From Tabrizicola sp. (lineage in GTDB: Bacteria > Pseudomonadota > Alphaproteobacteria > Rhodobacterales > Rhodobacteraceae), in contig JAEULQ010000114.1 of NCBI GenBank assembly GCA_016792685.1, positions 37,293 to 101,292 of the forward strand: a DNA stretch of 64,000 bases, given 5' to 3'. The stretch's first letter is position 1; the number at the start of each line of letters is the position of its first letter. Below, in pieces: positions 1-24,761 of the stretch. Both the position numbers and the translations under genes were made by a program. The notes under the pieces were generated by a model. That model saw nothing but the letters and a program-made list of their open reading frames with translations, made no database searches and was not told where the DNA came from.

Positions 1-1139
1 ACAGTTTCTGGACCTGGCGCGCGCTGATGTACCGCTTCCTGGAACGCCTTTCGCCCGAGGATGTGCAGGCCATCGCCGCCCAGGCCATGGTAGAGATGGC
101 CGAGGCGGGGTTCTCTGCCGTCTGCGAGTTCCACTATCTGCATCACCCGGTCGGCGGCGGGACTTACCTTGACCCTGCCGAGATGTCTGGCCGGATCGCC
201 GCTGCTGCAGCCGACACGGGCTTTGGCCTTACCCTTCTGCCAGTGATCTATGAACAGGGCGGGGTGGATGGCCGGGCGCTGGCCGGAGGGCAGCTGCGCT
301 TTGGCTCTTCGCCCGAGGTCTATGCGCGGATTCTGGACGGGGCGGGCACGGCTCTTGGCGGGATGCCGGATGCGGTTCTGGGCGTGGCGCCACATTCCTT
401 GCGCGCCGTCAGCCTGCCGACATTGAACCGGGTGGCGGGAATGGCCCCTGATGGCCCGGTGCATATCCATATCGCCGAACAGGTCGCCGAAGTGACCGAG
501 GTTCAGTCCGCCTGGGGTGCGCGGCCGGTAGAATGGGCGGTGGCGAACCTGCCGCTTGATGCGCGCTGGTGCATGATCCATGCCACGCAGATGAAACCGG
601 ACGAGACCGCCGACCTGGCCCGGTCCGGCGCGGTGGCGGGGCTTTGTCCCATCACCGAAGCCAACCTCGGCGACGGAATCTTCGACGGGCCGGGCTGGCT
701 CGCGGCAGAGGGGGCTTTCGGGGTTGGTTCGGACAGCAACGTCCGGATTTCGCTGACCGAGGAACTGCGGCTTCTGGAATATTCGCAACGCCTGAACCTG
801 AAGGCCCGCGCTGTCATGGCCACCGGCGACCGTTCAACCGGACGGCGGCTCTGGGAGGGTGTCGCGCAGGGTGGGGCGCAAGCGGCCGGTCGCCCCTCGG
901 GCCAGATCGCGGTTGGGCAATGGGCCGATCTATTGGCCGTGGACGCGACCGATCTTCGCCTTGCGGGCCTTGAAGGCGACAGCCTGCTTGACGGTTTGAT
1001 CTTCGCGGGCCGCGACGGTCTTGTCACCGACCTCTGGTCGGCCGGTCGCCATGTCGTGCGCGACGGTCGCCATATCGCGCGGGAAGCCATCGCCAGTCGC
1101 TTCAGTGCCACGATGCGCCGTCTGCGCGAGGCGCTGTGA
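1..1139 (+). CDS. hutF: Formimidoylglutamate deiminase HutF (5' end outside the window)
   Basis: Converts N-formimidoyl-L-glutamate to N-formyl-L-glutamate and ammonia in histidine degradation. The open frame already runs at the left edge, reading SFWTWRALM before the first internal ATG at 27. HutF is normally about 450 residues, so roughly 70-80 N-terminal residues, including the first metal-binding HxH, lie outside. Amidohydrolase signatures remain: HIHIAEQ, the histidine in CMIHATQM, and the metal-binding aspartate in GVGSDSNVRIS. The stop overlaps the start of hutC. The sequence is family-typical and the call is secure. The missing N-terminus is due only to the window edge. Confidence 0.93.
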   Translation, partial: SFWTWRALMYRFLERLSPEDVQAIAAQAMVEMAEAGFSAVCEFHYLHHPVGGGTYLDPAEMSGRIAAAAADTGFGLTLLPVIYEQGGVDGRALAGGQLRFGSSPEVYARILDGAGTALGGMPDAVLGVAPHSLRAVSLPTLNRVAGMAPDGPVHIHIAEQVAEVTEVQSAWGARPVEWAVANLPLDARWCMIHATQMKPDETADLARSGAVAGLCPITEANLGDGIFDGPGWLAAEGAFGVGSDSNVRISLTEELRLLEYSQRLNLKARAVMATGDRSTGRRLWEGVAQGGAQAAGRPSGQIAVGQWADLLAVDATDLRLAGLEGDSLLDGLIFAGRDGLVTDLWSAGRHVVRDGRHIAREAIASRFSATMRRLREAL

Positions 1140-1822
1140 TGCAGGGTTGGGAAGATGTCCGTGCCGAGGTGCTTCGACGCATCCGTGCGCGCGATTGGCC
1201 GCCGGGCGCGCTCATCCCCGGTGAAGAGGCCCTTGCGACGGAATTCGGCGTGGCGCGCGCCACGGTAAACCGCGCTCTGACCGCCCTTGCCGAGGCGGGG
1301 GTGGTCGAACGCAAGAAACGTGCCGGAACACGGGTATCAGAGCTCCCGGTTCGCCGCGCACGGCTGGAGATCCCGGTGATCCGGCTGGATGTCCTCAGTC
1401 GTGGCCTGGCATATGGCTTCAAGCTTCTGGCTGACCGAATGGTTCCGGCCCCGGTTCCAGTGGCGGCAAGGCTTGGTCTGCCCGAACATGCGCCGATGCG
1501 GTATCTTGAGACGCTGCATCTGGCCGGAGGACGTCCCTTCGTGCTGGAAACCCGCTGGCTGAATCCCGCGGTCCTGGTCGGAGAGCAGCCGGATTTTTCG
1601 GCCGTCAGTGCGAATGAATGGCTGGTGACCCACGTCAGTCTGGTGTCCGGCGACATCGCCTTTACCGCCGAAGCGGCAGCCGCGCGCGAGGCCGAGGTGA
1701 TGGGGGTTGCTTCGGGCACCCCGCTTCTTGTTGCCGAACGCACGACCTATGGCACCTCAGGCCCCGTAACCCTGGTCAGGTTGGCCCATGCGCCGGGCCA
1801 TCGGGTGCAGATGACCTTCTGA
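1139..1822 (+). CDS. hutC: GntR/HutC-family repressor of histidine utilisation
   Basis: 227 residues. An N-terminal GntR winged helix (about residues 5-70, with EFGVARATVNRALTAL as recognition helix) is followed by a UTRA ligand domain that ends in the family-typical LVRLAHAPGHRVQMTF. HutC proteins repress hut genes and are released by urocanate or a related intermediate. ATG 1139 shares one base with the hutF stop (TGATG) and has GAGG upstream. A GTG at 1136 is also possible. Translational coupling to hutF fits an autoregulated hut operon. The assignment rests on the family pattern plus the hutF neighbour. Confidence 0.88.
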   Translation: MQGWEDVRAEVLRRIRARDWPPGALIPGEEALATEFGVARATVNRALTALAEAGVVERKKRAGTRVSELPVRRARLEIPVIRLDVLSRGLAYGFKLLADRMVPAPVPVAARLGLPEHAPMRYLETLHLAGGRPFVLETRWLNPAVLVGEQPDFSAVSANEWLVTHVSLVSGDIAFTAEAAAAREAEVMGVASGTPLLVAERTTYGTSGPVTLVRLAHAPGHRVQMTF

Positions 1823-1847: not shown

Positions 1848-2696
1848 TCAACCGGGGAAATGACGCCCGACCAGCTGCGTCAGCTTGCGGTGAAGTGCCT
1901 GGGTGCGGTGGCGGATATGGATCGCGGCATAGACCGGCTGGCGCAGCGGCGCCGCATCTTCAACCAGTTGGAACCGCCCACCCGACACCAGCTCGTTTGC
2001 CGTCTTTTCCAGCACATAGCCCGAGCCTCCCATCGCCAACAGCAGCGACACGACTGAACCGGACTGGCCGACCGACACCGGCGAGGCGGCAAGCTCGGGC
2101 GTCGTCTGGCGGTGCATTTCCTCAAAGGCTGGCGAAAAATGCGCAAAGACGAAGCGGTCGGCAGCGACTTCCGCGATCCGCCCCGCTTCGGTCGAGATCA
2201 TGCGATCGGTCACGTCGCCCACGCTTTCGAAATGTAGGTCCGGATGCGGATTGGGCGAGAACATCACGGCGAAATCGAGAATGCCTGTCAGAAGGTCGGC
2301 GCACATCTGGTTGGAATAGTCGGGCTCGATGTAAAAGCTCATCTCGGGCAGGGCCTGGCGGAACTCGGCCACCCAGTCGCCCAGGTAGACGGCGGCCAGG
2401 TCATTCTGGATGCCAAGCCGCAAGAGATGCGCAGCCCCAAGCGGGATCTGGATCCGCCTCCGCGCCTCGTTCCATTCGTGCCGAAGCGCCCGCGCATGCG
2501 GTTCGAACCGCTTGCCTTCGGGGGTAAGGTCAGTGCCCGCGCGAGAGCGGTCAAAGAGCCGGCTGCCGACCGCCTGCTCCAGCGCCGTGACGCGGGCCGA
2601 GACGGTCGATTGCGTGATCCGCAGCCTCTCGGCCGTGCGGTGGAAGCTGCGTGTCTCGACCAGGTCGAGGAATGTGTCGAGAAGTTCGATCTGCAT
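1848..2696 (-). CDS. LysR-family transcriptional regulator
   Basis: 282 residues. The N-terminal helix-turn-helix is typical (LLDTFLDLVETRSFHRTAERLRITQSTVSARVTALE), followed by a periplasmic-binding-like effector domain. ATG 2696 has AGGA six bases upstream. It is divergent from the methylated-amine operon starting at 2801, with a dyad containing a T-N11-A LysR box at 2706-2724 between them. It is therefore the likely regulator of that operon. It converges on hutC, 25 bases away. The inducer is unknown, probably the operon's substrate or an intermediate. Confidence 0.85.
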   Translation of the reverse strand: MQIELLDTFLDLVETRSFHRTAERLRITQSTVSARVTALEQAVGSRLFDRSRAGTDLTPEGKRFEPHARALRHEWNEARRRIQIPLGAAHLLRLGIQNDLAAVYLGDWVAEFRQALPEMSFYIEPDYSNQMCADLLTGILDFAVMFSPNPHPDLHFESVGDVTDRMISTEAGRIAEVAADRFVFAHFSPAFEEMHRQTTPELAASPVSVGQSGSVVSLLLAMGGSGYVLEKTANELVSGGRFQLVEDAAPLRQPVYAAIHIRHRTQALHRKLTQLVGRHFPG

Positions 2697-2800: not shown

Positions 2801-5245
2801 ATGTCGGCAGTTCCAGGCCAGGCGAGAATTGTGATAATTGGCGGAGGAGCGGTCGGTGCCTCGTGCCTCTATCACCTGGCCAAGGCGGGCTGGACGGACG
2901 CGCTGCTTCTGGAAAAGAACGAGCTGACCGCCGGGTCCACCTGGCATGCGGCAGGGAACGTGCCGACCTTTTCCTCCAGCTGGTCGATCATGAACATGCA
3001 GCGCTACTCGGCCGAACTTTACCGCGGCCTCGGTGCGGCGGTCGACTATCCGATGAACTATCATGTGACCGGCTCGGTCCGGCTTGGACATTCCGAGGAA
3101 CGCCTCCTGGAATTCAAGAAGGTTGTCGGCATGGGCCGCTACCAGGGGATGAATCTGGACATCCTTTCGCCCGAGGATATCCGCAGTCGCTATCCCTTTG
3201 TCGAAACGCATGACCTGACCGGTGCGCTTTATGACCCCTATGACGGCGACATCGACCCTGCTCAGCTGACGCAGGCGCTGGCAGCCGGGGCCCGCCAGAT
3301 GGGCGCGCGGATCGAACGGTTCTGCCCGGTGACGGCCGCACGCTGGACCGGCACGGAATGGGTTCTGACCACGCCCAAGGGTGAAGTGCGGGCCGAATAT
3401 GTCGTGAACGCTGGCGGCTATTACGCCGCGCAGGTGGGCGCTTTGTTCGGGCGCCGCGTGCCGATGATGGTCATGAGCCACCAGTATCTTCTGTTCGACA
3501 CGATCCCCGAGCTTGAAGCCTGGACCAAGGAGGTCGGCCACAAGCTGCCGCTCCTGCGTGACGTCGACAGCTCATACTACCTTCGTCAGGAGAAGATGGG
3601 CTTCAACCTCGGCCCCTATGAAAACCCCTGCCGCGCGCATTGGGCGACGCCGGACGACCCGTTCCCGGAAGACTTCAGCTTCCAGCTGTTCCCGGACGAT
3701 CTGGAGCGTCTTGAGTGGCATATCGCCGACGCGATGGCCCGGGTTCCTCTTCTGGAAAAGGCGAACCTGACCAAGGTGATCAACGGACCCATTCCCTATG
3801 CGCCGGATGGCAACCCGCTGATCGGTCCGATGCCGGGCGTGCCCAATGCCTTCGAGGCCTGTGTCTTCACCTTCGGCATCTGCCAGGCCGGCGGTGCCGG
3901 GAAGGTGCTGGCCGAGTGGGTGACTGAGGGCGCGACCGAATGGGACATGTGGTCCTGCGACCCTCGCCGCTTTACCGGCTGGGAGGATCAGGATTACTGC
4001 GTGAAGAAGGGGATGGAGGTCTATGGCCACGAATACGCCATGCATTTCCCGCATCACGCCTGGCCCGAAGGCCGGATGAAGCGTCTGTCCGCGGTCCATG
4101 ACCGGACCGCGGCCCTGGGAGCCCAGTTCGGGCCCTACAACGGTTATGAGCGCGCCTTGTGGTATGCGCGGCCCGGCGACGACACCTCGGAAGAGGCGCA
4201 GCGCACCTGGCGGCGCGAGGGTCCCTGGTTCGGCGCGGTCAAGGATGAATGCGCAGCCGTGCGGGATGCCTGTGGTATTCTCGACCTGCCGGGCTTCTCG
4301 CGCTTCCGGTTGACCGGGGCAGGGGCGGCTGACTGGCTTGCCCGCCAGATCACGGGCAAGCTGCCCTCGGTCGGTCGTCTGGGCCTGGCCTATTTCGCCG
4401 ACGACAAGGGCCGGATTGTCACCGAAATGTCGGTGGCCCGGATCGCGGAAGATGAGCTTCTGCTCATTACTGCGGCGACGGCCCAGCTGCATGACAAGGG
4501 CTGGCTGGAACGGCATCTTGCCGCCGGGCTTTCCTTGACGGACGAAAGCGCGGACTGGTCCTGCCATATCCTTACCGGCCCGAAGGCGCGTGAAGTGCTT
4601 CAGGCTGCCGGAGCCGAGGCCGACCTGGCCAAGGGCTGGCTGACCCACCAGAAGGCCCGGATCGCGGGGCGCGATCTGGTCCTGATGCGGGTCTCGTTTG
4701 CCGGGGAACTTGGCTGGGAGCTGCACAGCCGGGTGGCCGACACGCCCGCAATCTGGGACGCCGTGATGGCGGCGGGCAAACCCCTTGGATTGCGGCCGTT
4801 CGGCATGTTCGCGCTGAACAGCCTGCGCGTCGAGAAGGGCTATCGCGCCTGGAAGGGTGACCTTTCGACCGATTACACCGTGCTGCAGGGCGGGCTGGAC
4901 CGGTTCGTCGACTGGGCGAAGCCCGAGTTCCGCGGCAAGGCGGCGCTTGAAGCCGAGAAGCAGCGCGGGGTCACCAAGCGTTTTGCCACCCTCGTCATCG
5001 AGGCCGACACCCATGACCCGCCCTATATGGCGACGATCTGGCATGACGGACAGGTCGTGGGCGAGCTGACCTCGGGCTATTGGGGCCACCGGGTCGGGGC
5101 CTGCATCGGACTGGGCATGCTGAAGACCGAGCTCAACCAGCCCGGCCAGGCGGTCGAAGTGGAAATCTTCGGGCGCCGCTTCCCGGCAACGGTAAAGGCG
5201 GACGAGCCGCTCTGGGATCCGGCCAACGCCCGTATCCGCGCATGA
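2801..5245 (+). CDS. FAD-dependent oxidoreductase with GcvT domain (dimethylglycine/sarcosine dehydrogenase-like), first copy
   Basis: 814 residues. N-terminal FAD domain with the dinucleotide motif IGGGAVGAS (13-21), a ribose-binding glutamate at 38, and STWHAAG. The histidine near 49 corresponds to the one that covalently binds FAD in dimethylglycine dehydrogenase. From about residue 430 on there is a folate-binding GcvT domain, so the removed methyl group is expected to leave as methylene-tetrahydrofolate. The start at 2801 is chosen for GGAGGAGG at 2788-2795; upstream TTG 2783 and ATG 2786 would place that site inside the gene. First gene of the operon, overlapping the next by ATGA. The substrate cannot be read from the sequence: a tertiary or secondary N-methyl amine is likely. 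Confidence 0.85.
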   Translation: MSAVPGQARIVIIGGGAVGASCLYHLAKAGWTDALLLEKNELTAGSTWHAAGNVPTFSSSWSIMNMQRYSAELYRGLGAAVDYPMNYHVTGSVRLGHSEERLLEFKKVVGMGRYQGMNLDILSPEDIRSRYPFVETHDLTGALYDPYDGDIDPAQLTQALAAGARQMGARIERFCPVTAARWTGTEWVLTTPKGEVRAEYVVNAGGYYAAQVGALFGRRVPMMVMSHQYLLFDTIPELEAWTKEVGHKLPLLRDVDSSYYLRQEKMGFNLGPYENPCRAHWATPDDPFPEDFSFQLFPDDLERLEWHIADAMARVPLLEKANLTKVINGPIPYAPDGNPLIGPMPGVPNAFEACVFTFGICQAGGAGKVLAEWVTEGATEWDMWSCDPRRFTGWEDQDYCVKKGMEVYGHEYAMHFPHHAWPEGRMKRLSAVHDRTAALGAQFGPYNGYERALWYARPGDDTSEEAQRTWRREGPWFGAVKDECAAVRDACGILDLPGFSRFRLTGAGAADWLARQITGKLPSVGRLGLAYFADDKGRIVTEMSVARIAEDELLLITAATAQLHDKGWLERHLAAGLSLTDESADWSCHILTGPKAREVLQAAGAEADLAKGWLTHQKARIAGRDLVLMRVSFAGELGWELHSRVADTPAIWDAVMAAGKPLGLRPFGMFALNSLRVEKGYRAWKGDLSTDYTVLQGGLDRFVDWAKPEFRGKAALEAEKQRGVTKRFATLVIEADTHDPPYMATIWHDGQVVGELTSGYWGHRVGACIGLGMLKTELNQPGQAVEVEIFGRRFPATVKADEPLWDPANARIRA

Positions 5246-6279
5246 CCGGCCTGCCCACCACGATGTCTGGGGTCCAGCTTGTCGGCCATGGCGGGCCGGA
5301 AATGCTGGTCTGGCGCGACGATCTTCCGGTGCCTCGTCCCGCTGCGGGCGAGGTTCTGGTCAAGGTCCTTGCGGCGGGCGTGAACATGACCGACATCAAC
5401 ACCCGCAGGGGTTGGTACGGTGGCGAGGGTCGGGCGGCCGGCTGGGCCGGTGAAATGGCCTTCCCGCGCATCCAGGGCTCGGATCTCTGTGGCCGTGTCG
5501 TGGCCTTCGGGACGGATGTCCCCGGCCTTCCGCTTGGGGCGCGGGTGATTTGCCCGACGAACCAGCACGAGCCCGAATCGGCAAACCCGATCCGCTTTGT
5601 GTCGATTGGTTCCGAATTCGACGGCGCCTTCGCGCAGTATTGTCTGGTGAAGGCCCGGCATCTGCATGATGTCAGTGCCTCACCCCTCACCGATATCGAA
5701 ATCGGCGCCATGCCTTGCGCCTATGGCACGGCACACAATCTCTTGACGCGAGCCGCCGTGGCAGTGGGTGAGCGGGTTCTGGTCACCGGAGCTTCGGGCG
5801 GTGTCGGGCTGGCGGCGGTGCAGCTGGCACTCTTGCGCGGGGCAGAGGTCACCGCCCAGTGCAGCCTTGGCAAATCCGCGCCGCTGCGGGCCATGGGGGC
5901 GACGATCCTGTCGCGGGAGGCACAGCCGCGACCGCACAGCTTTGATGTTGTGATCGACGTGGTGGGTGGCGAAGGCTTCCAGGACCGGCTGGATGCGCTG
6001 TCGCCGGGTGGGCGCTATGCCACCTCGGGTGCAGTCGGCGGACCGATGGTCAAGGGCGACCTGCGCCGCGTCTATCTGAACGATCTGACGATTTTCGGCG
6101 CCACCCATCAGCCGCGCGAGGTCTTTGCGGGGCTTGTCACGATCATCAACACCGCCCGTATCCGGCCGGTCGTGTCGAAGACCTACCCCCTGCGCGATAT
6201 CGCCCTTGCCCAGGCCGATCTGGCCGCCGGGCGCTATCCCGGCAAACTTGTCCTTGTTCCTCCGGAGTCCTATCCATGA
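5242..6279 (+). CDS. Medium-chain alcohol dehydrogenase/quinone oxidoreductase-like protein
   Basis: 345 residues. Zinc-independent MDR layout: GroES-like N-terminus (GEVLVKVLAAGVNMTDINTR), then a Rossmann domain with VLVTGASGGVGLAAVQLALLRGAEV. The C-terminal part resembles quinone oxidoreductases. The cysteines of the structural zinc site of alcohol dehydrogenases are not evident. The start ATG 5242 overlaps the previous stop (ATGA), and the end overlaps the next start in the same way. It probably reduces an unsaturated or keto intermediate using NADPH. The exact reaction is unknown. Confidence 0.8.
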   Translation: MTGLPTTMSGVQLVGHGGPEMLVWRDDLPVPRPAAGEVLVKVLAAGVNMTDINTRRGWYGGEGRAAGWAGEMAFPRIQGSDLCGRVVAFGTDVPGLPLGARVICPTNQHEPESANPIRFVSIGSEFDGAFAQYCLVKARHLHDVSASPLTDIEIGAMPCAYGTAHNLLTRAAVAVGERVLVTGASGGVGLAAVQLALLRGAEVTAQCSLGKSAPLRAMGATILSREAQPRPHSFDVVIDVVGGEGFQDRLDALSPGGRYATSGAVGGPMVKGDLRRVYLNDLTIFGATHQPREVFAGLVTIINTARIRPVVSKTYPLRDIALAQADLAAGRYPGKLVLVPPESYP

Positions 6280-8714
6280 CGATCCCCGCAAAAGCCCGTG
6301 CCGTAGTCATCGGCGGCGGCGTCTCTGGCTGTTCGGTGGCCTATCACCTGGCCAAAGCGGGCTGGACCGATGTTGTCCTGCTGGAACGTCGCAAGCTTAC
6401 GTCCGGCACGACCTGGCACGCTGCTGGCCTGATCGGTCAGCTGCGGGGCAGCGCGAACATGACCCGGCTCGCCAAGTATTCCGCCGACCTTTACCGGGGA
6501 CTTGAGGCCGAAACTGGCGTCGCCACCGGGATGAAGCAGGTTGGCTCGATCTCGGTCGCGCTGACGAAAGAACGGCATGAAGAACTGCTCAGGCAAGCCA
6601 CGGTCGCCCGTATCTTCGATGTCGAAGTGCATGAGATTTCGCCGCAAGAGGTGAAGGCACGCTATCCGCACCTGAATGTCAGCGACGTCGTGGGCGCGGT
6701 CGCCCTGCCGCTGGATGGGCAGTGTGACCCGGCAAATATCGCCATGGCGCTGGCCAAGGGCGCCCGGATGCGGGGCGCCAGGATCTTCGAGATGACGAAG
6801 GTGACGAAAGTCACCACCGCCAACGGCCGCGTGACCGGCGTTGATTATGAGACCGCCGAAGGGCCCGGCCATATCGAGGCCGACATCATCGTCAACTGCG
6901 GCGGCATGTGGGGCAGGGACCTTGCGGCCCAGAACGGCGTCACCTTGCCCCTGCACGCCTGCGAGCATTTCTACCTGATCACCGAACCCGTTGCCGGGAT
7001 CGACCTGAACCTGCCGGTGCTGCGCGTTCCCGACGAATGCGCCTATTACAAGCAGGACGCCGGCAAGATGATGCTTGGTGCCTTTGAACCAAAGGCCAAG
7101 CCCTGGGGCATGGGCGGCATTCGCCCCGACTTTGAGTTCGACACCCTGCCCGAAGACTGGGATCACTTCATGCCCATCCTCGAGATGGCCACGAACCGCA
7201 TGCCGCTGTTCGAGACCGCAGGTATCCACACTTTCTTCAACGGCCCGGAAAGCTTTACCCCCGACGACCGCTACTACTTGGGCGAGGCGCCTGAGGTGAA
7301 GGGCTACTGGATCGCGGCCGGGTACAACTCGATCGGCATCGTGTCCTCGGGCGGCGCGGGCCAGGCACTGGCGCATTGGATCACCGAGGGCGAGGCGCCC
7401 TTTGACCTCTGGGAAGTCGACATCCGCCGTGCCCAGCCTTTCCAGAAGAACCGGGCCTACCTGAAGGAACGGGTGACCGAGACGCTTGGCCTTCTTTACG
7501 CCGACCACTTCCCCTATCGCCAGGTCGTGACCTCGCGCGGGGTGCGGCGATCGCCGCTTCACGAACATCTGAAAGCACGCGGGGCCGTCTTCGGCGAGGT
7601 CGCAGGCTGGGAACGCGCCAACTGGTTCGCGAACGAGGGGCAGGAACGGGAATACCGCTACTCCTGGAAGCGGCAGAACTGGTTCGAGAACCAGAAGGCC
7701 GAACACATGGCCATCCGCACCGGCGCTGGTCTCTTCGACATGACGAGCTTCGGCAAGATCCGGATCGAGGGCCGCGATGCCTGCGCTTTCCTCAACCGCA
7801 TCTCCTCGGCCCAGATGGATGTTCCGGTGGGGCGCATCGTCTATACGATGTTCCTTAACGATCGCGGTGGGATAGAGGCCGACCTTACAGTGACGCGCCT
7901 GTCCGAGACCGCCTATCTCGCCGTGGTCCCGGGGGCGACATTGCAGCGCAACCTCGCCTGGATGCGCGCGCATGTGGGCGACGACTTTGCTGTCATTACC
8001 GATGTGACCGCCGCAGAATCGGTCCTTTGCCTTATGGGTCCGCAGTCGCGCGACGTCTTGGCCCGCGTGTCGCCGAACGACTTCAGCAATGATGCTCATC
8101 CCTTTGGAACCATGCGGGAAATCGAGATTGGTATGGGCCTCGCCCGTGCCCATCGCGTGACCTATGTCGGCGAGCTTGGCTGGGAGCTGTATATACCGAC
8201 CGACCAGACCGCGCATGTTTTCGAGGCGTTGATGGAGGCGGCCCCGGATCTCAAGCTCTGCGGCCTTCACACGCTGGACAGCTGCCGGATCGAAAAGGCC
8301 TATCGCCACTGGGGCCACGATATCACGGATGAGGATCACGTGCTGGAAGCCGGGCTTGGCTTTACGGTCTCGCGCAAGAAGCCGGGCTTCATCGGTCGGG
8401 ACGCTGTCCTGAAAGCCGAGGAAACCGGTCTTGCCCGCAAGATGCTCCAGTTCCGGCTGAAGGACCCCGAGCCGCTGCTCTTCCACAATGAGGCAGTGGT
8501 TCGGGATGGCAAGATCGTGGGGCCGGTCACCAGCGGCAACTATGGCCATTTCCTGGGCGGAGCCATCGGCATGGGCTATGTTCCAGCCAAGGGGCAGACG
8601 GACGACGACATCCTCAGCTCGAAATACGAAATCGAGGTTGCCGGGCAGCGGCATGAAGCGATTGCAAGCCTTGTCCCGATGCATGACCCGAAGTCTGAGA
8701 GGATCAGGGCATGA
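6276..8714 (+). CDS. FAD-dependent oxidoreductase with GcvT domain (dimethylglycine dehydrogenase-like), second copy
   Basis: 812 residues. Same architecture as the protein at 2801-5245: FAD motif IGGGVSGCS (12-20), glutamate 37 and TTWHAAGL with a histidine near 48 at the covalent-flavin position, then a GcvT half from about residue 430 ending in MHDPKSERIRA, which resembles the end of dimethylglycine dehydrogenases. The two copies are clearly diverged from one another, so they probably act on different methylation states or substrates rather than being a recent duplication. ATGA overlaps on both sides place it in the operon. Confidence 0.86.
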   Translation: MTIPAKARAVVIGGGVSGCSVAYHLAKAGWTDVVLLERRKLTSGTTWHAAGLIGQLRGSANMTRLAKYSADLYRGLEAETGVATGMKQVGSISVALTKERHEELLRQATVARIFDVEVHEISPQEVKARYPHLNVSDVVGAVALPLDGQCDPANIAMALAKGARMRGARIFEMTKVTKVTTANGRVTGVDYETAEGPGHIEADIIVNCGGMWGRDLAAQNGVTLPLHACEHFYLITEPVAGIDLNLPVLRVPDECAYYKQDAGKMMLGAFEPKAKPWGMGGIRPDFEFDTLPEDWDHFMPILEMATNRMPLFETAGIHTFFNGPESFTPDDRYYLGEAPEVKGYWIAAGYNSIGIVSSGGAGQALAHWITEGEAPFDLWEVDIRRAQPFQKNRAYLKERVTETLGLLYADHFPYRQVVTSRGVRRSPLHEHLKARGAVFGEVAGWERANWFANEGQEREYRYSWKRQNWFENQKAEHMAIRTGAGLFDMTSFGKIRIEGRDACAFLNRISSAQMDVPVGRIVYTMFLNDRGGIEADLTVTRLSETAYLAVVPGATLQRNLAWMRAHVGDDFAVITDVTAAESVLCLMGPQSRDVLARVSPNDFSNDAHPFGTMREIEIGMGLARAHRVTYVGELGWELYIPTDQTAHVFEALMEAAPDLKLCGLHTLDSCRIEKAYRHWGHDITDEDHVLEAGLGFTVSRKKPGFIGRDAVLKAEETGLARKMLQFRLKDPEPLLFHNEAVVRDGKIVGPVTSGNYGHFLGGAIGMGYVPAKGQTDDDILSSKYEIEVAGQRHEAIASLVPMHDPKSERIRA

Positions 8715-9556
8715 CGCTTGCCGCGCGGCATCAGGCTTTCCATGACTTGCACCAGTCCGGCTGCTTCGTGATCCCGAACCCCTGGGACCGGGGTTCCGCA
8801 CGGATGATGGCTGCGCTTGGGGCCAAGGCTCTGGCCACGTCTTCGGCGGCGCACGCCTTTACCCTTGGACGCCCGGACCTTGGCGGCGTGTCTCGGGACG
8901 AGGCGCTGGCCCATGCGGCCGACCTGATCGCCGCGACGGATCTGCCGGTCTCGGGCGATTTCGAGAACGGTTTCGGGGAGGCCCCGGAAGATGTCGCCGA
9001 AACCGTCCGCCTGTCTGGCGAGGTGGGTCTGTCCGGCATCAGTGTCGAGGATACCCAGATGATCCCCGGCAACGCGCCCTATGCTTTCGACCTGGCTGTC
9101 GAGCGCATCCGCGCCGGGGTTGCCGCCAGCCGCGCGCTTGGCCGCCCCTTTGTTTTTTGCGCCCGCGCCGATGGCGTGATGCACGGCACTTATGACCTCG
9201 CCGAAGGTATTCGCCGCCTGCAGGCCTTCGAGGCCGCAGGCGCGGACCTGCTGTATCTGCCGGTGCCCCCGGGCAAGGCGGAACTTGCCCAGGTGCTGGC
9301 GGCGGTGAGAAAGCCGGTGAATGCGCTGGCCGCCGGGCCGCTAAAGTCCATGAGCGTCGCCGAACTGGCCGGGATGGGCGTCCGTCGCATTTCGACCGGA
9401 AGCCAGATCGCCCGCCTGACCCATGCGGCGATCCGCGACAGTGTGACGGCAATGCTTTCCAAAGGGTCGTTTCAGCCGCTGATGGCAACGGCTTCGGGTG
9501 ATGAAATCGACGCGCTCCTTGCTTTGGGCGCGGGCAAGGAAGGACTGACCAAATGA
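8711..9556 (+). CDS. Isocitrate lyase/PEP mutase superfamily protein
   Basis: 281 residues. A (beta/alpha)8 phosphoenolpyruvate mutase-type fold: FVIPNPWDRGSARMMAALGAKALATSSAA near the N-terminus, SGDFENGFGE and GISVEDTQMI for the Mg/substrate loop, and FCARADGVMHG. Members are lyases or hydrolases of 2-hydroxy or 2-oxo acids (methylisocitrate lyase, oxaloacetate hydrolase) and phosphonate mutases. The cysteine-containing KKCGH-type loop of true isocitrate lyase is not seen, so general C-C lyase or acyl-hydrolase activity is more likely. Overlaps both neighbours by ATGA. It presumably acts on the carbon skeleton after demethylation. Confidence 0.82.
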   Translation: MTLAARHQAFHDLHQSGCFVIPNPWDRGSARMMAALGAKALATSSAAHAFTLGRPDLGGVSRDEALAHAADLIAATDLPVSGDFENGFGEAPEDVAETVRLSGEVGLSGISVEDTQMIPGNAPYAFDLAVERIRAGVAASRALGRPFVFCARADGVMHGTYDLAEGIRRLQAFEAAGADLLYLPVPPGKAELAQVLAAVRKPVNALAAGPLKSMSVAELAGMGVRRISTGSQIARLTHAAIRDSVTAMLSKGSFQPLMATASGDEIDALLALGAGKEGLTK

Positions 9557-11106
9557 CCGATATCGGCGAAATCTGCGAACCCGCCCGTTCAAGACGTTCC
9601 GGTGGCCGTCAGGCCCGCGTGGCGATGCGCGCGGCCCCACTGGCCGATGATGTCCGCCCGGTTCGCCCCGGCATGCCAGGCGGGCAGTACAAGCCCCTGA
9701 CCGAAGCCGGGGTGCAACAGATCCACGCCGCCGCGCTGGACGCGCTGGAACAGATCGGTCTCTCCCAGGCTCCGCCCTCTGGCGTGAAGCTTCTGACCGA
9801 AGCAGGGGCGCAGCTGGGCGATGATGGTCGCATCCGCTTTCCCCGGGCGCTGGTCGAGGACATGCTGGCCGTCGCCGCCCGCAACATCACGCTCCACGCC
9901 CGCGACCCGAAATACGACTTGCACCTGAGCGGGACCAACGTCCACTACGGCACCGCAGGCGCCGCTGTGCATATCGTCGATCCGATCACGCTGGACTATC
10001 GCGAATCCACCGCGCAGGACCTGTATGACGCGGCGCGGCTGGTCGACAACCTGGACAACATCCACTTCTACCAGCGGACCATGGTCTGCCGGGATGTCAA
10101 GGATAACAAGGAGATGGACCTCAACACGCTTTACGGCTGCCTTGCGGGCACCGTGAAGCATGTCGGCACCTCCTTCTCAGACCCCTCCCACGTCGCCGAC
10201 TGTTTCGAGATGCTCTACACAGTCGCAGGCGGAGAGGAGAAATGGCTGGAGCGGCCCTTCGTCTCGAACTCCAACTGCTTCGTCGTGCCTCCGATGAAAT
10301 TTGCCGAGGAAAGCTGCATCACCATGGAGGATTGCATCCGCCGTGGCATGCCGATGCTCCTCCTCTCTGCCGGTCAGGCGGGCGCCACCGCCCCGGCCCC
10401 GATCGCACTGACCATCGTGCAGGCCGTGGCCGAATGCCTGGCGGGGGTGGTCTATGTCAACGCGATCAAGAAGGGCGCCCCGGCGATCTTCGGCACCTGG
10501 CCCTTCGTCAGCGACCTGCGCACCGGTGCCATGTCCGGCGGCAGCGCCGAGCAGGCGCTTCTGACGGCTGGCTGCGCCCAGATGCACCGGTTCTACGACC
10601 TGCCGGGCGGGGCGGCCTCGGGCATCTCGGACTCCAAGCTTCCCGACATGCAGGCGGGATGGGAGCAGGGGATTACCAATTCGCTCGCCGGACTTGCGGG
10701 CCTCAACATGTGCTATGAAGCCGTGGGCATGCATGCCTCGCTCCTCGGTTTCTGCCTGGAAAGCCTGGTCCTGGGCGATGACCTGCTGGGGCAGGCCATG
10801 CGTCTGGTGCGCGGCATCGACGTGACGCCGGACAGCACTTCGATCGACGCGATGAAGGATGTCTGCCTGGGCGGCCCCGGCCATTACCTGGGCAGCGACC
10901 AGACGCTCAAGCTGATGCAGACCGAATACATCTACCCCAAGGTCGGCAACCGCATGTCGCCCAAGGAGTGGAACGAGGCCGGCAAGCCGCTGCTCCTTGA
11001 CACGGCCATCGCGCGCAAGAACGATATCCTCTCCAAGGCCGGGTGCCGCGTCGATCCCGAGATCGATGCCGCGATCCGCAAGCGTTTCAACATCTACTTC
11101 AAGTGA
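9553..11106 (+). CDS. Trimethylamine methyltransferase (MttB)-family protein without pyrrolysine
   Basis: 517 residues. MttB superfamily barrel, with segments such as NVHYGTAGAAVHIVDPITLDYRESTAQDL and a glycine-rich C-terminal half. The frame runs without an in-frame TAG, so this is a non-pyrrolysine member of the kind that includes glycine betaine and carnitine methyltransferases. Known non-pyrrolysine members move a methyl group from a quaternary amine to a corrinoid protein. No corrinoid protein or MtbA/MtqA-like gene is in the window. ATGA overlap with the preceding gene. The substrate is inferred to be a quaternary ammonium compound, but this is unproven. Confidence 0.87.
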   Translation: MTDIGEICEPARSRRSGGRQARVAMRAAPLADDVRPVRPGMPGGQYKPLTEAGVQQIHAAALDALEQIGLSQAPPSGVKLLTEAGAQLGDDGRIRFPRALVEDMLAVAARNITLHARDPKYDLHLSGTNVHYGTAGAAVHIVDPITLDYRESTAQDLYDAARLVDNLDNIHFYQRTMVCRDVKDNKEMDLNTLYGCLAGTVKHVGTSFSDPSHVADCFEMLYTVAGGEEKWLERPFVSNSNCFVVPPMKFAEESCITMEDCIRRGMPMLLLSAGQAGATAPAPIALTIVQAVAECLAGVVYVNAIKKGAPAIFGTWPFVSDLRTGAMSGGSAEQALLTAGCAQMHRFYDLPGGAASGISDSKLPDMQAGWEQGITNSLAGLAGLNMCYEAVGMHASLLGFCLESLVLGDDLLGQAMRLVRGIDVTPDSTSIDAMKDVCLGGPGHYLGSDQTLKLMQTEYIYPKVGNRMSPKEWNEAGKPLLLDTAIARKNDILSKAGCRVDPEIDAAIRKRFNIYFK

Positions 11107-11113
11107 GGTCGCC

Positions 11114-12547
11114 ATGATCCCCGCCAACATGCTGAAATTCTACATCAATGGGCAATGGGTCGACCCCATATCCAAGAACCGCATGGGCGTGGAAAACCCC
11201 GCGACCGAAGAGATCGTCGCGGAAGTGGCCATGGGCAATGCCGAGGACGCCGACCGTGCGATTCTTGCCGCCCGCGCAGCCTTTGACAGTTGGACCTACC
11301 GCCCCGTGGCCGAGCGCATCGCCGTCGTGAAGCGTATTCTCGAGGTCTACAACGAGCGTTACGAAGACTTCGCGCAAGTGATGTCGACCGAAATGGGGGC
11401 GCCGATCACCTGGGCGCGCAACGCTCAGGCCTGGGCAGGCCAGGTCCATATCGAAGCCACCATTAAGGCCGCCGAAGAGATGGTCTGGGAATACAACCGC
11501 GGCACCACGCGGATCATCTACGAGGGGATCGGCGTCTGCTCGCTGATCACGCCGTGGAACTGGCCGATGAACCAGATCGCCTGCAAAGTCGCTCCGGCAC
11601 TGGTCGCGGGCTGCACGATGGTGCTTAAGCCTTCGGAAATCGCGCCGCTCTCGGGCGTCCTTTTCGCACAGGTCTGCCATGATGCGGGCGTGCCTGCGGG
11701 TGTCTTCAACCTGGTGAACGGCGCCGGGCCTGAGGTAGGGGCCCGGATGTCGACGCATCCCGAAGTCGACATGGTGTCCTTCACCGGCTCGACCCGGGCC
11801 GGGACGCAGATCGCCGCCGTTGCCGCGGCTACGGCTAAGCGTGTGGCCCAGGAAATGGGCGGAAAGAGCCCGAACATCATCCTTCCGACCGCCAACATCG
11901 CCGAGGCCGTGGCTGCAGGCGTCAACGCCGTCATGTCGAACACCGGCCAGTCCTGCGATGCGCCGACCCGGATGCTAGTGCCCCGCAACCGGCAGGCCGA
12001 AGCCCTTGCCGTCGCCAAAGAGGTTGCCGAGGCGATCAAGGTCGGCGATCCGCGTGACGAGGATACCGTCATGGGGCCGCTGGTGTCCAAGATGCAGTTC
12101 GACAAGGTGCAAAAGCTGATCCAGGCCGGGATCGACGAGGGCGCGACCCTGGTGACCGGTGGGGTGGGGCGCCCGGCTGACCTCAACCGCGGCTGGTTCG
12201 TTCGCCCGACTGTCTTCGGCGATGTCGTGAATGCGATGACCATCTCGAAAGAGGAAATCTTCGGGCCGGTGCTGGCGATCCAGCCCTACGACAGCATCGA
12301 GGATGCCATCGCCCAGGGCAACGACACGATCTACGGCCTTGCGGCCTATGTCGCTGGCCCGGTCGAGGACGCAATCCCCGTTGCGCGCAAGCTGCGCGCC
12401 GGGACTGTGAACCTGAACTATCCGGATTGGGACACTTCCGCCCCGTTCGGCGGCTACAAGCAGTCGGGCAACGGCCGGGAGTATGCCGATTGGGGCATCC
12501 ATGACTTCTGCGAGGTCAAGGGCATCGTCGGTTACGGCAAGGCCTAA
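11114..12547 (+). CDS. NAD-dependent aldehyde dehydrogenase
   Basis: 477 residues, the normal family length. Key motifs: TPWNWPMNQIACKVAPAL (NAD site), KPSEIAP, FTGSTRAG, the general-base glutamate in QEMGGKSPN, the catalytic cysteine in NTGQSCDAPTRM, and EEIFGPVL. The start at ATG 11114 follows the mttB stop by 7 bases with GAGG upstream. A longer frame to 10997 would overlap mttB and is not supported. It oxidises an aldehyde, plausibly a semialdehyde or betaine aldehyde from the operon's substrate. Confidence 0.9.
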   Translation: MIPANMLKFYINGQWVDPISKNRMGVENPATEEIVAEVAMGNAEDADRAILAARAAFDSWTYRPVAERIAVVKRILEVYNERYEDFAQVMSTEMGAPITWARNAQAWAGQVHIEATIKAAEEMVWEYNRGTTRIIYEGIGVCSLITPWNWPMNQIACKVAPALVAGCTMVLKPSEIAPLSGVLFAQVCHDAGVPAGVFNLVNGAGPEVGARMSTHPEVDMVSFTGSTRAGTQIAAVAAATAKRVAQEMGGKSPNIILPTANIAEAVAAGVNAVMSNTGQSCDAPTRMLVPRNRQAEALAVAKEVAEAIKVGDPRDEDTVMGPLVSKMQFDKVQKLIQAGIDEGATLVTGGVGRPADLNRGWFVRPTVFGDVVNAMTISKEEIFGPVLAIQPYDSIEDAIAQGNDTIYGLAAYVAGPVEDAIPVARKLRAGTVNLNYPDWDTSAPFGGYKQSGNGREYADWGIHDFCEVKGIVGYGKA

Positions 12548-12566
12548 GCCTGCGGTTCAACACCAA

Positions 12567-12588
12567 GGGGCAGGGCGGAACCTGCCCC
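12567..12588 (+). terminator. Intercistronic hairpin without T-tract
   Basis: GGGGCAGG pairs with CCTGCCCC around a six-base loop, between the aldehyde dehydrogenase and the next gene. There is no T-run, so it is more likely an mRNA-stability or partial termination element within the operon than a full terminator. Confidence 0.35.
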
Positions 12589-12606
12589 TCATCCAACGGG
12601 GATATC

Positions 12607-13506
12607 ATGCATTACGGTTACATCGGCCTGGGCAATCTCGGGGCGGCCTGTGCGGGCTGCCTGGTCAAGGACGGCTTCAAGGTCACGGTCTACGACCTGA
12701 ACGCGAAACTTGCCGATCCGCTGATCGCGCAAGGCGCGACTCTCGCAAAAAGCGCCGAGGAACTGGCGGCTTCGGTCGATCACGTCATCACCTGCCTGCC
12801 GTCCCCGGCCGTGTCCGAGCGCGTCCTGCGGAATATCCTGCCACATATGAAGAAGGGCGCGAGCTGGGTCGAGATGTCGACTCTCGGCCGTGACGAAGTG
12901 CTGAAACTTGCAGCCATCGCCGCCGAATCCGGTGTGCGCATGATGGAACTGCCGGTCACCGGTGGTGTGCATCTGGCCTATCAAGGCAAGATCACCATGC
13001 TCGCGGGCGGGGACAAGGACCTTTACGACACCCATTACAAGGCCATGCAGGCCATGGGAGACCGGATCTTCCACATGGGCCCCTTGGGGTCATCCTGCAT
13101 CATCAAGGTCATCACCAACATGCTGGCCTTCATCCACCTCAAGGCCACCTCCGAGGCGCTGATGCTGGCCAAGCGTGGCGGGCTCGATCTGGCCCAGGCC
13201 TGGCATGCGATTGCCGCCTCGTCGGGCAACTCCTTCGTCCACGAAACCGAAGGGGCGCTGATCCTGAACGGGTCCTACGACATCGCCTTCAACATCGATC
13301 TGGCGCTGAAGGATCTTGGCTTCGCTCTTGGCTTCGGCAAGGAATTCGGCGTACCGCTGGATTTGGCGTCGATGACCAACCAGACCTACATCGCCGCCAA
13401 GGCCGCCTATGGTGGCGAGGCGCAGTCGCCAATGATCGCCAAGCTTCTGGAGGACCTTCTCGGCACCGACCTCCGCGCGCCGGGCTTCCCCGCCCGGCTG
13501 GAGTGA
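12607..13506 (+). CDS. 3-Hydroxyisobutyrate dehydrogenase-family NAD(P)-dependent oxidoreductase
   Basis: 299 residues. N-terminal Rossmann motif GYIGLGNLGAACAGCL, substrate-binding ELPVTGGVHLAYQGKITMLAGG, and the catalytic lysine region GSSCIIKVITNMLAF. Beta-hydroxyacid dehydrogenases of this type oxidise 2- or 3-hydroxy acids. The ATG at 12607 follows GGGGAT. It lies 59 bases after the aldehyde dehydrogenase and most likely belongs to the same transcript. Together with the aldehyde dehydrogenase it suggests the substrate carbon chain passes through a hydroxy acid and a semialdehyde. Confidence 0.87.
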   Translation: MHYGYIGLGNLGAACAGCLVKDGFKVTVYDLNAKLADPLIAQGATLAKSAEELAASVDHVITCLPSPAVSERVLRNILPHMKKGASWVEMSTLGRDEVLKLAAIAAESGVRMMELPVTGGVHLAYQGKITMLAGGDKDLYDTHYKAMQAMGDRIFHMGPLGSSCIIKVITNMLAFIHLKATSEALMLAKRGGLDLAQAWHAIAASSGNSFVHETEGALILNGSYDIAFNIDLALKDLGFALGFGKEFGVPLDLASMTNQTYIAAKAAYGGEAQSPMIAKLLEDLLGTDLRAPGFPARLE

Positions 13507-13614
13507 CTTGAGAGGGTTGCGCCAGCCGGTTAAGCTTGGGTAAACGCCCACGCGCAAGCCGCTGATTTCGCTGAGGTCACAGCCTTGTCCCGCGTGGACA
13601 CTAAAGGAGCCCAC

Positions 13615-14730
13615 ATGACCGCCGAGACCGACGCCCGCATCGCCCGCCTTCTGCATCACCGGAAGGCGGGGCTCTCTCTGGGCGAGCCGGTGGTGCCCCC
13701 GATCTCGGTCGCGACCACCTTCCACCTGCCGCAGGCGCAGGGGGCTGCCCACTACTATGGCCGCTCAGGCCAGCCGACCTGGGACGCCGTCGAAGCCCAG
13801 CTCTCGATCCTCGAAGCTGCCGAGACCGTCACTTTCCCCTCGGGTATGGCAGCCATCACCGCCGCCCTTGTCTGCAGCCTGAAGGCCGGGGCGAAAGTCA
13901 TGATCCCGTCCGACGGCTATTATGTGACCCGTCTGCTTGGCCGCGACCTGTTGCAGGTCTACGGGGTGGACGTCGTGCAGGTCCCCACGCTTGAGATGGA
14001 GACCGCCGACTTCACCGGCTTTCAGGTGATCTATATCGAGACCCCTTCGAACCCCGGCCTCGACACGGTCGATATCGCCGTGCTGGCCCGTCGCGCCCAT
14101 GCTGCCGGGGCGCTTCTTATCGCGGACAACACGACGATGACGCCGTTTCTGCAGCGGCCGCTGGACCTTGGGGCCGACCTCGTTGTCGCCGCAGATACCA
14201 AGGCCCCTGCAGGTCATTCCGACGCACTCTTCGGCCATGTGGCGGGCCGCGACGCGAACCTGATGGCCCGAATCCGGGAATGGCGGCGACAGTCCGGCTC
14301 GGTCCCGGGGCCGTTCGAGGCTTACCTCGTTCATCGCGGTCTCGAAACGCTGGAGGTCCGGCTTGAGCGTATGTGTGCCTCGGCCGCCGTGATCGCCGCC
14401 CGCCTTGCCGCGCATCCGGCGGTGAAGAACCTGCGCTACCCGGGACTACCGGGCGATGCCTCCTATGGTGCGGTCGGGGGGCAGATGGCCAATGGCGGTT
14501 TCCTGATCGGTCTCACCCTGGCAGATGCCGAGGTGGCCGAGGCCTTCCTGGCCCGCTGCCCGATGATCGAGCAGGCCACCAGTTTTGGCGGTACCCATTC
14601 CGCGGGTGAGCGCCGCGCCCGCTGGGGGGATTCGGTGCCGGAAGGGTTCATCCGCCTGTCGGTCGGCATCGAACCTGTCGAGGTGCTCTGGTCTTCCATC
14701 GCCGCGGCTTTGGCTGACCTTCAGGCCTGA
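13615..14730 (+). CDS. Cys/Met metabolism PLP-dependent enzyme (cystathionine beta-lyase/gamma-synthase-like)
   Basis: 371 residues. Fold-type I PLP enzyme of the cystathionine family: YGRSGQPTWDAVEAQLSILE, FPSGMAAITAAL, IYIETPSNPGL, the PLP lysine in AADTKAPAGHSD (normally SATKYINGHSD), and the C-terminal FGGTHSAGERRARWG. AAAGGAG at 13603-13609 sets ATG 13615. It is 108 bases downstream of the previous gene on the same strand, so it may belong to the operon or be independent. Methionine biosynthesis and beta/gamma-elimination from a substrate-derived compound are both possible. Lyase versus synthase cannot be decided. Confidence 0.82.
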   Translation: MTAETDARIARLLHHRKAGLSLGEPVVPPISVATTFHLPQAQGAAHYYGRSGQPTWDAVEAQLSILEAAETVTFPSGMAAITAALVCSLKAGAKVMIPSDGYYVTRLLGRDLLQVYGVDVVQVPTLEMETADFTGFQVIYIETPSNPGLDTVDIAVLARRAHAAGALLIADNTTMTPFLQRPLDLGADLVVAADTKAPAGHSDALFGHVAGRDANLMARIREWRRQSGSVPGPFEAYLVHRGLETLEVRLERMCASAAVIAARLAAHPAVKNLRYPGLPGDASYGAVGGQMANGGFLIGLTLADAEVAEAFLARCPMIEQATSFGGTHSAGERRARWGDSVPEGFIRLSVGIEPVEVLWSSIAAALADLQA

Positions 14731-23753: not shown

Positions 23754-24692
23754 TCAAGCGATGGAAAGATGGAGATGTTCACAGGCCGCCGCAACGTGGC
23801 GGTGATCAGACCCGCAGCACCCGCCAATGATCCGCAGGTTCGGCAACTGGTCCCTGAACGCGCCGTAGAGCGCGCCAAATTCAGCCGGATCGCCATCATC
23901 GAGAATGGTCGCCTCGTCAAGTTCGGCGTGGCTTTGGCGTGAGGCATTCGCCCTGATCCCGCCGATCCGCCCGCGCATCGGGCCATCGAGCGCCGCGTTG
24001 AAATGGGTCGGGTGAGCGCAGTTCACCATGTAGAAGAGCGCGCTTCCCCCGGTTTCCTCCTCGACCTCGGCAAGGGCGTCCTGTAGGGACTGGCCTGTCG
24101 CGAGCCGCCCGTCAGTCTCGACAGTGAAGGATATGACATGCGGCAGACCGGTCCGGGCCGCGGCACGGGCGACCCCGATCGCCTCGGCAGGATAGGTCAT
24201 GGTCATCACGGTCAGGAGATCGACCCCAGCCTCAGCCAGCGCTGCGATCTGCGGCAGGTGCATCGCCTCGGCGGCTACAGCATCCAGCATGGTCTCGATC
24301 CGGTAACCATCACCAGCCGGGCCGACGATCCCGTTGATCAGGACCGGCATCGCTGCGGTTTCGACGCGTGCGCGCATTGCTTGGGCGAAGTCCACCGCCT
24401 TCCGGTTTGCCGCGCGAATGTCGGCTTCGCCAAGGCCCATCGCCTGGGCCCAGCCCATATTGGCCCGCCACGTTGCGGTATCCAGCACAAATCCCGTGCC
24501 CCCGGCGCGGGCAAGATCGGCGAACTGGTCGAACCAGCGCGCAAGCGCCGCGCGGCCCGCATCGCTGTCGAGAAGCGGGAACGAGGCGAAATAGGGCAAG
24601 TCCAACCCTTCATGAAAGATCATCGCGGTCTCAAGCCCGGCATCGGCAATCCATGGATGAGGCGAGGTCATCAGGCGGTCGACGCGGCGCAT
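23754..24692 (-). CDS. Homocysteine S-methyltransferase family protein
   Basis: 312 residues. A zinc-dependent methyltransferase barrel: WIADAGLETAMIF at the N-terminus, and the zinc cysteines in MVNCAHP and IIGGCCGSDHRHV. Relatives transfer methyl groups from S-methylmethionine, betaine or similar donors to homocysteine. Its real donor is not known. GAGGAG nine bases upstream supports ATG 24692; TTG 24731 is an alternative. Divergent from a TetR regulator that may control it. The distance from the methylated-amine operon means no direct link is shown. Confidence 0.84.
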   Translation of the reverse strand: MRRVDRLMTSPHPWIADAGLETAMIFHEGLDLPYFASFPLLDSDAGRAALARWFDQFADLARAGGTGFVLDTATWRANMGWAQAMGLGEADIRAANRKAVDFAQAMRARVETAAMPVLINGIVGPAGDGYRIETMLDAVAAEAMHLPQIAALAEAGVDLLTVMTMTYPAEAIGVARAAARTGLPHVISFTVETDGRLATGQSLQDALAEVEEETGGSALFYMVNCAHPTHFNAALDGPMRGRIGGIRANASRQSHAELDEATILDDGDPAEFGALYGAFRDQLPNLRIIGGCCGSDHRHVAAACEHLHLSIA

Positions 24693-24761
24693 GGCGAAAG
24701 GCTCCTCTGGCGGCTTCAGGTTGCCCGACAATAGATCGCAAGTCGTTTGGTGCGACAGCCG

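Follow-up and report, generated by a model that had tools for sequence, protein, structure and literature searches.

MttB proteins hand a methyl group to a corrinoid protein. The anaerobe Desulfitobacterium hafniense uses such a protein, MtgB, on glycine betaine; we take the structures 2qne and 9yce to be this enzyme. In aerobic marine bacteria, according to Mausz and colleagues (2025; PMC12478193), glycine betaine is demethylated via a B12 protein that is shared with methionine synthesis. As described there, the MtgBCD(E) system of Ruegeria pomeroyi DSS-3 comprises a PF06253 methyltransferase (the published glycine-betaine MtgBs are SPO2108 and SPO2134), with MtgC and a DUF1638 protein, MtgD and RamA acting in trans, and its corrinoid system is shared with a split methionine synthase. 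The remaining N-methyl groups are the domain of enzymes such as human mitochondrial dimethylglycine dehydrogenase (DMGDH; 5l46) and dimethylglycine oxidase (1pj5), which bind flavin adenine dinucleotide (FAD) and carry a folate-binding GcvT domain. This work examines an operon that brings both enzyme types together. It lies in a window of 64,000 nucleotides (the whole stretch of DNA that was analysed) from Tabrizicola sp., contig JAEULQ010000114.1 (contig C4 of the host genome, of which the window is a part). The host genome has 3.58 Mb and is 89% complete; judged by the MttB protein of the window, its nearest named relatives are Tabrizicola, Rhodobacter and metagenome-assembled Rhodobacteraceae. 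The evidence leans, if modestly, towards a LysR-regulated catabolic operon that would take all three N-methyl groups off a small trimethylammonium compound and oxidise its carbon skeleton.

The gene cluster is a genuine recurring operon. Gene calls were taken from open reading frames, and families were assigned with NCBIfam and Pfam profiles. Read from a divergent LysR-type regulator gene (1848–2696, minus strand; PF00126, PF03466), the genes, all on the plus strand, follow in this order: FAD-GcvT protein 1, which resembles dimethylglycine dehydrogenase (DMG1; 2801–5245; PF01266, PF16350, PF01571, PF08669); an MDR-superfamily oxidoreductase (5242–6279; PF08240, PF13602, PF00107); FAD-GcvT protein 2 (DMG2; 6276–8714; the same four Pfam families as DMG1); a phosphoenolpyruvate-mutase/isocitrate-lyase-superfamily protein (PEPM; 8711–9556; PF13714); a non-pyrrolysine MttB/MtgB-superfamily methyltransferase, here termed the window MttB (9553–11106; PF06253); an aldehyde dehydrogenase (ALDH; 11114–12547; PF00171); a beta-hydroxyacid dehydrogenase of the HIBADH family (12607–13506; PF03446, PF14833); and a Cys/Met-metabolism enzyme dependent on pyridoxal phosphate (PLP), similar to cystathionine gamma-lyase (13615–14730; PF01053). 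The MDR and PEPM genes are optional members. Four junctions are ATGA overlaps (at 5242, 6276, 8711 and 9553), while MttB and ALDH are spaced by 7 bases and ALDH and HIBADH by 59. An earlier note, made from the sequence alone, had named these gene families, the four overlaps and the divergent LysR gene, all of which were confirmed. It did not name the PLP enzyme, which starts 108 bases past HIBADH and whose membership of the pathway is unsure.

Relatives were compared at 75 sites from other genomes in the order, each a stretch of at most 19.5 kb that includes an MttB homologue, and at 80 named loci. The 75 loci were drawn from 241 matching genomes and are mostly best matches; the percentages are thus biased to close relatives. 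There are 149 distinct loci (160 with 11 duplicates), and in 120 of these, the close loci, MttB shares 73% identity or more with that of the window. A run was defined as genes on the same strand with gaps of at most 300 bases. The gene caller had been trained on the high-GC window; it called no genes in one stretch (L264) and three in another (L254). Homologues of the window MttB at E ≤ 1e-60 occur in 241 of 390 sampled Rhodobacterales genomes, and the order conserved in relatives is LysR|FAD-GcvT1-FAD-GcvT2-MttB-(ALDH)-HIBADH. Both FAD-GcvT genes stand in the MttB run at 87 of the 149 distinct loci, and a single one at 18. Among the 120 close loci, the run contains HIBADH in 101, DMG2 in 92, DMG1 in 86, both FAD-GcvT genes in 81, ALDH in 65, the PLP gene in 43, the MDR gene in 21 and PEPM in 18. 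Because both FAD-GcvT genes recur in the MttB run while the genes flanking the cluster differ from genus to genus, this linkage goes beyond chance. A search for HIBADH in the 390 genomes points the same way: 50 orthologues have at least 61% identity (the next match has 46%), and 42 of them lie within 2 kb of MttB, one at 8 kb and seven elsewhere or at a contig end. The surroundings of the orthologues away from MttB gave no functional clue among the genes listed.

The gap between lysR and the operon carries a palindrome, TGATCG-N7-CGATCA (2706–2724), which includes a T-N11-A LysR-type box and is a putative operator. The match in the window is exact, and it is the sole site there at up to one mismatch. 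At up to two mismatches, the palindrome occurs in 86 of the 89 gaps that separate lysR from DMG1 or MttB (a count that takes in duplicate loci), compared with a mean of 0.52 gaps in a control with mononucleotide-shuffled gaps. The loci are mutually related, so these occurrences are not independent events. When 60 of 83 lysR–operon gaps were aligned, the palindrome was more conserved than most other gap sequence. A lysR gene of the window family lies within six genes of MttB at 79 of the 120 close loci. The operon is thus apparently co-regulated through a shared LysR-associated site. Since relatives keep the gene order, the palindrome recurs in nearly all gaps and most HIBADH orthologues lie near MttB, the cluster is not a product of chance.

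The window MttB matches PF06253 over residues 15–509 with 370 bits (cut-off 25), and MtgB (2qne, 9yce) with about 183 bits. The pyrrolysine site, position 334 of 7xcl, corresponds to Ile358, an isoleucine shared by 68 of 76 aligned homologues, and the reading frame contains no internal stop; the protein is not a pyrrolysine MttB. Like the window protein, D. hafniense MtgB belongs to the same superfamily and has no pyrrolysine, but it has Leu where the window MttB has Tyr388. Tyr388 and Gly136 are invariant in all 76 aligned homologues, and the active site of an MttB-type enzyme, according to a published account (PMC9842639), includes a tyrosine and a glycine, both of which the window MttB retains. 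The motif D-S/A-K-x-P-D-M-Q-A-G-W-E is present in at least 150 of 158 homologues, counting its six commonest forms. Six PF06253 genes are found in the host genome; the window MttB is only 24–28% identical to the other five and 47% identical to a homologue on the R. pomeroyi megaplasmid. A quick MttB tree has long outgroup branches, and its deep forks carry no claim.

DMG1 and DMG2 are 32% identical to each other. In each, DAO, FAO_M, GCV_T and GCV_T_C domains form one chain with a FAD-histidine motif (STWHAAG in 103 of 109 members of the DMG1 family, TTWHAAG in 105 of 108 of the DMG2 family), the arrangement that defines the DMGDH type. For both proteins, human DMGDH (5l46) is the closest solved relative, with 564 bits for DMG1 and 443 for DMG2. 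Domain order, FAD-histidine motif and folate domain are as in 5l46 and 1pj5; what sets the window apart from these is that two divergent copies share an operon with MttB. From this likeness, both proteins may be expected to act on N-methyl amines. The host genome has five further FAD-GcvT genes (36–39% identical to DMG1 and 31–45% to DMG2), so other enzymes are available for the usual steps at dimethylglycine and sarcosine.

The operon encodes no corrinoid protein. The host genome supplies the corrinoid protein, reactivator and folate partner that the MttB/MtgB superfamily requires: a single B12-binding_2 protein, read as MtgC, on contig C22 with a DUF1638 gene adjoining, one MtgD-like methyltetrahydrofolate:corrinoid methyltransferase on C114 and one RamA-like protein on C106. 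A MetH activation domain was not found in the genome at its 89% completeness. This combination matches the aerobic MtgBCD system (PMC12478193). The partnership of the window MttB with MtgC is assumed from this genome content.

Close MttB homologues have no partner more constant than HIBADH (101 of 120 loci), one of the genes with a presumed role in skeleton oxidation. The catalytic residues of the HIBADH family are a lysine and a following asparagine; in an alignment with 3cky these correspond to Lys167 and Asn171, which are kept in 112 of 112 homologues. The GQSC catalytic cysteine of ALDH is present in 72 of 72 homologues. PEPM matches 4lsb with 206 bits. Isocitrate and methylisocitrate lyases carry their catalytic cysteine in a K-K/R-C-G-H loop, and this loop (CGH) is missing in 24 of 24 PEPM homologues. 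A role for PEPM as an isocitrate-lyase-type C–C lyase was accordingly rejected: the loop is absent and the gene is optional, so the C–C cleavage that the earlier note had assigned to it is not borne out. As a separate observation, a class I/II aminotransferase gene adjoins PEPM, or lies one gene from it, or heads a DMG2 + PEPM run, at four loci (L087, L099, L103, L107; the class was assigned from the L107 copy), and this enzyme might transaminate the demethylated product.

The proposed pathway starts from an observed basis: gene content, recurring linkage, an operator-like palindrome, partner genes and conserved catalytic residues. In a first step, MttB would load one methyl group onto MtgC, the shared corrinoid protein whose gene lies on another contig. 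The corrinoid-bound methyl group may then be passed by MtgD to tetrahydrofolate, or may feed methionine synthesis; the predicted role of RamA and the DUF1638 protein is to maintain the corrinoid in its reduced state. In steps two and three, DMG1 and DMG2 would use FAD to oxidise first the tertiary and next the secondary N-methyl amine, with the carbon going to folate. In a fourth step, HIBADH would oxidise a hydroxy-acid carbon to an aldehyde, which ALDH would take to the acid. Each of these reactions, their order, the MtgC partnership and the chemical class of the substrate are what we infer. The idea of one enzyme per methyl group goes back to the earlier note; a recurring module of one quaternary-amine-type and two DMGDH-type enzymes with a shared regulator site speaks for it, and the corrinoid partner, which the note lacked, has been supplied here. 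The substrate is probably other than glycine betaine.

Several points weigh against this pathway. Neither FAD-GcvT gene is in the run at 44 of the 149 distinct loci, six of which are at a contig or stretch end, nor at 23 of the 120 close loci, of which only six are at an end. A Loktanella-like group has MttB-HIBADH without both FAD-GcvT genes alongside, and a basal group of MttB homologues stands alone. The families were built by single linkage, which also lumps distant paralogues. With its low identity to the other MttB proteins of the host, the window MttB is joined to MtgC by assumption. The clusters of Sinorhizobium meliloti and Shinella (see below) contain neither HIBADH nor an ALDH of the window type, and the second FAD-GcvT gene of S. 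meliloti Ak57 was read in part and carries no annotation. The operon itself has no transporter gene, and nothing in the genes or comparisons points to one particular substrate. Finally, the window MttB was set apart from the glycine-betaine enzymes via the neighbourhood of mtgC, not via alignment with SPO2108 and SPO2134.

That neighbourhood bears on the strongest of the alternatives, which holds a minority share of belief: a second glycine-betaine/choline operon, in which MttB would act on glycine betaine, DMG1 would be dimethylglycine dehydrogenase, DMG2 sarcosine dehydrogenase and ALDH betaine-aldehyde dehydrogenase (BADH). Among 190 genomes of the class, 38 encode MtgC; the surroundings of its gene were examined in 20 of the 38, in stretches of up to 19 kb, one of which had no called genes. 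Nine of the 20 stretches contain an MttB gene; eight of these are nearest to the L112-type protein of the host (52–65% identity), one is nearest to its L115 type, and none of the nine is nearest to the window type. The L112-type gene of the host lies on contig C5. Because the window MttB belongs to a distant branch and is not of the type near mtgC in these nine cases, it is unlikely to be the glycine-betaine enzyme; a further difference from MtgBCD(E) of R. pomeroyi is that its operon also encodes two FAD-GcvT enzymes and enzymes for skeleton oxidation. The similarity of DMG1 to mitochondrial DMGDH among solved proteins would suit a glycine-betaine operon, yet five other FAD-GcvT genes of the host are free for dimethylglycine and sarcosine. 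Likewise, the best NCBIfam model for ALDH is that of BADH (TIGR01804), but its 409 bits fall below the cut-off of 668.6. No ALDH of the host genome exceeds this cut-off, so a canonical BADH may be truly missing or may have dropped out of the incomplete assembly. A choline-dehydrogenase-family gene stands in the run at 6 of the 149 distinct loci, which also favours this alternative, whereas HIBADH is not known to have a role in glycine-betaine breakdown.

The same evidence qualifies the view of the earlier note that no known pathway fits this set. It holds in so far as the set is apparently not that for glycine betaine; on the other side, a corrinoid route has been published for glycine betaine (PMC12478193), and both the BADH-like best model of ALDH, below cut-off as it is, and the occasional choline-dehydrogenase-family gene count against it. 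A Rieske-type gene, assigned by eye, lies near the cluster in some relatives.

Counterparts of SPO2108 and SPO2134 were sought by gene spacing in genomes presumed to be Ruegeria (group g22), whose MttB proteins are up to 91% identical to the megaplasmid MttB of R. pomeroyi. One of them, G160, has an MttB pair 27 kb apart, with no mtgC among the called genes of the next stretches. In another, G249, four stretches of about 20 kb around an L112-type gene, two per flank, showed no mtgC. Five such genomes have 6 to 13 PF06253 genes each. As an aside, three of them (G249, G374, G160) have 12 to 13, which exceeds the number of up to seven per genome given in the published account, where other methylated compounds are suggested as substrates (PMC12478193).

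A loose cluster, in which MttB and the FAD-GcvT proteins serve methylated amines while HIBADH, ALDH and the MDR, PEPM and PLP genes belong to an unrelated pathway, is slightly less probable again than a glycine-betaine operon. Many loci do lack ALDH, MDR, PEPM or the PLP gene, and six HIBADH orthologues occur in stretches without an MttB gene among the genes listed; the constancy of HIBADH as a partner argues against such a separation, as does its position beside MttB even at loci without FAD-GcvT genes. A more specific form of the three-methyl pathway is decidedly improbable as a whole: a dedicated aerobic route for a trimethylated 3-hydroxy acid whose fate in bacteria is not known to have been traced, with one enzyme per methyl group, the first passing via MtgC to methionine synthesis, and with HIBADH and ALDH oxidising the hydroxymethyl carbon. 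One compound that would fit occurs in algae: the betaine lipid DGTA has as its head group a 3-hydroxyisobutyrate whose methyl group bears a trimethylammonium. Least probable of all, by a little, is hercynine (histidine betaine) as substrate, with histidine handed to the neighbouring Hut pathway: a full hut set (hutU, hutH and hutI by eye, then hutF and hutC) does lie directly upstream in the host, abutting lysR (window 27–1822 and the upstream contig, L218), and hutC is within three genes of lysR at 23 of 93 loci (duplicates included), but this neighbour is missing at the other 70, hutC and lysR are convergent and hence not one transcript, HIBADH and ALDH are left without explanation, and a literature search gave no bacterial hercynine breakdown in the titles or abstract openings of the papers listed.

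Returning to the trimethylammonium operon, versions of it are found beyond the close relatives. Sinorhizobium meliloti Ak57 (pSymB) and Shinella have the order LysR|DMG1-DMG2-(PEPM)-MttB; an ABC transporter lies near both clusters, a feature common to two close relatives and not used as evidence. A distant version is located at about 340–349 kb of the R. pomeroyi DSS-3 megaplasmid (NC_006569.1; L120), in the operon SPO_RS21400–21380. Like the window, it has an MttB-family gene (47% identical), two FAD-GcvT genes and a divergent LysR gene; unlike the window, it has a class III aminotransferase and a thiamine-pyrophosphate enzyme resembling sulfoacetaldehyde acetyltransferase (401 bits against that model, whose cut-off is 620). 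This operon might act on N-methylated taurine or a related betaine. Elsewhere (L083), a window-type MttB and a DMG1-family gene, cut by the stretch end, flank a taurine-like cluster. Its sulfoacetaldehyde acetyltransferase scores 1034 bits, well above the cut-off; the labels of its aminotransferase, Pta and TauR were assigned by eye. Together, these loci suggest a reusable three-methyl module that has been joined to different skeleton genes.

Genes of the homocysteine S-methyltransferase family form a further side observation. One is encoded in the window at 23754–24731 on the minus strand (PF02574, 119 bits), unlinked to the operon. Others lie in or near the FAD-GcvT/MttB cluster at eight loci (L052, L067, L081, L086, L095, L100, L101 and L103); the single copy scanned matches PF02574, and the cluster-associated gene is possibly a dedicated MtgE-like acceptor.

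The chemistry of the single parts is known; their combination and the branch of the window MttB appear new. A literature search, with preprints and most subscription journals outside its scope, found no published account of the operon or of this branch. For the PF06253 family, the operon connects one branch with the enzymes that would act on the second and third methyl groups, with a pair that would oxidise the skeleton and with an operator-like site. The question of which betaine is consumed thus becomes one of growth and reporter assays, with the operon providing a putatively inducible handle on the missing compound, and a form of it is present in the experimentally tractable species Sinorhizobium meliloti (strain Ak57).

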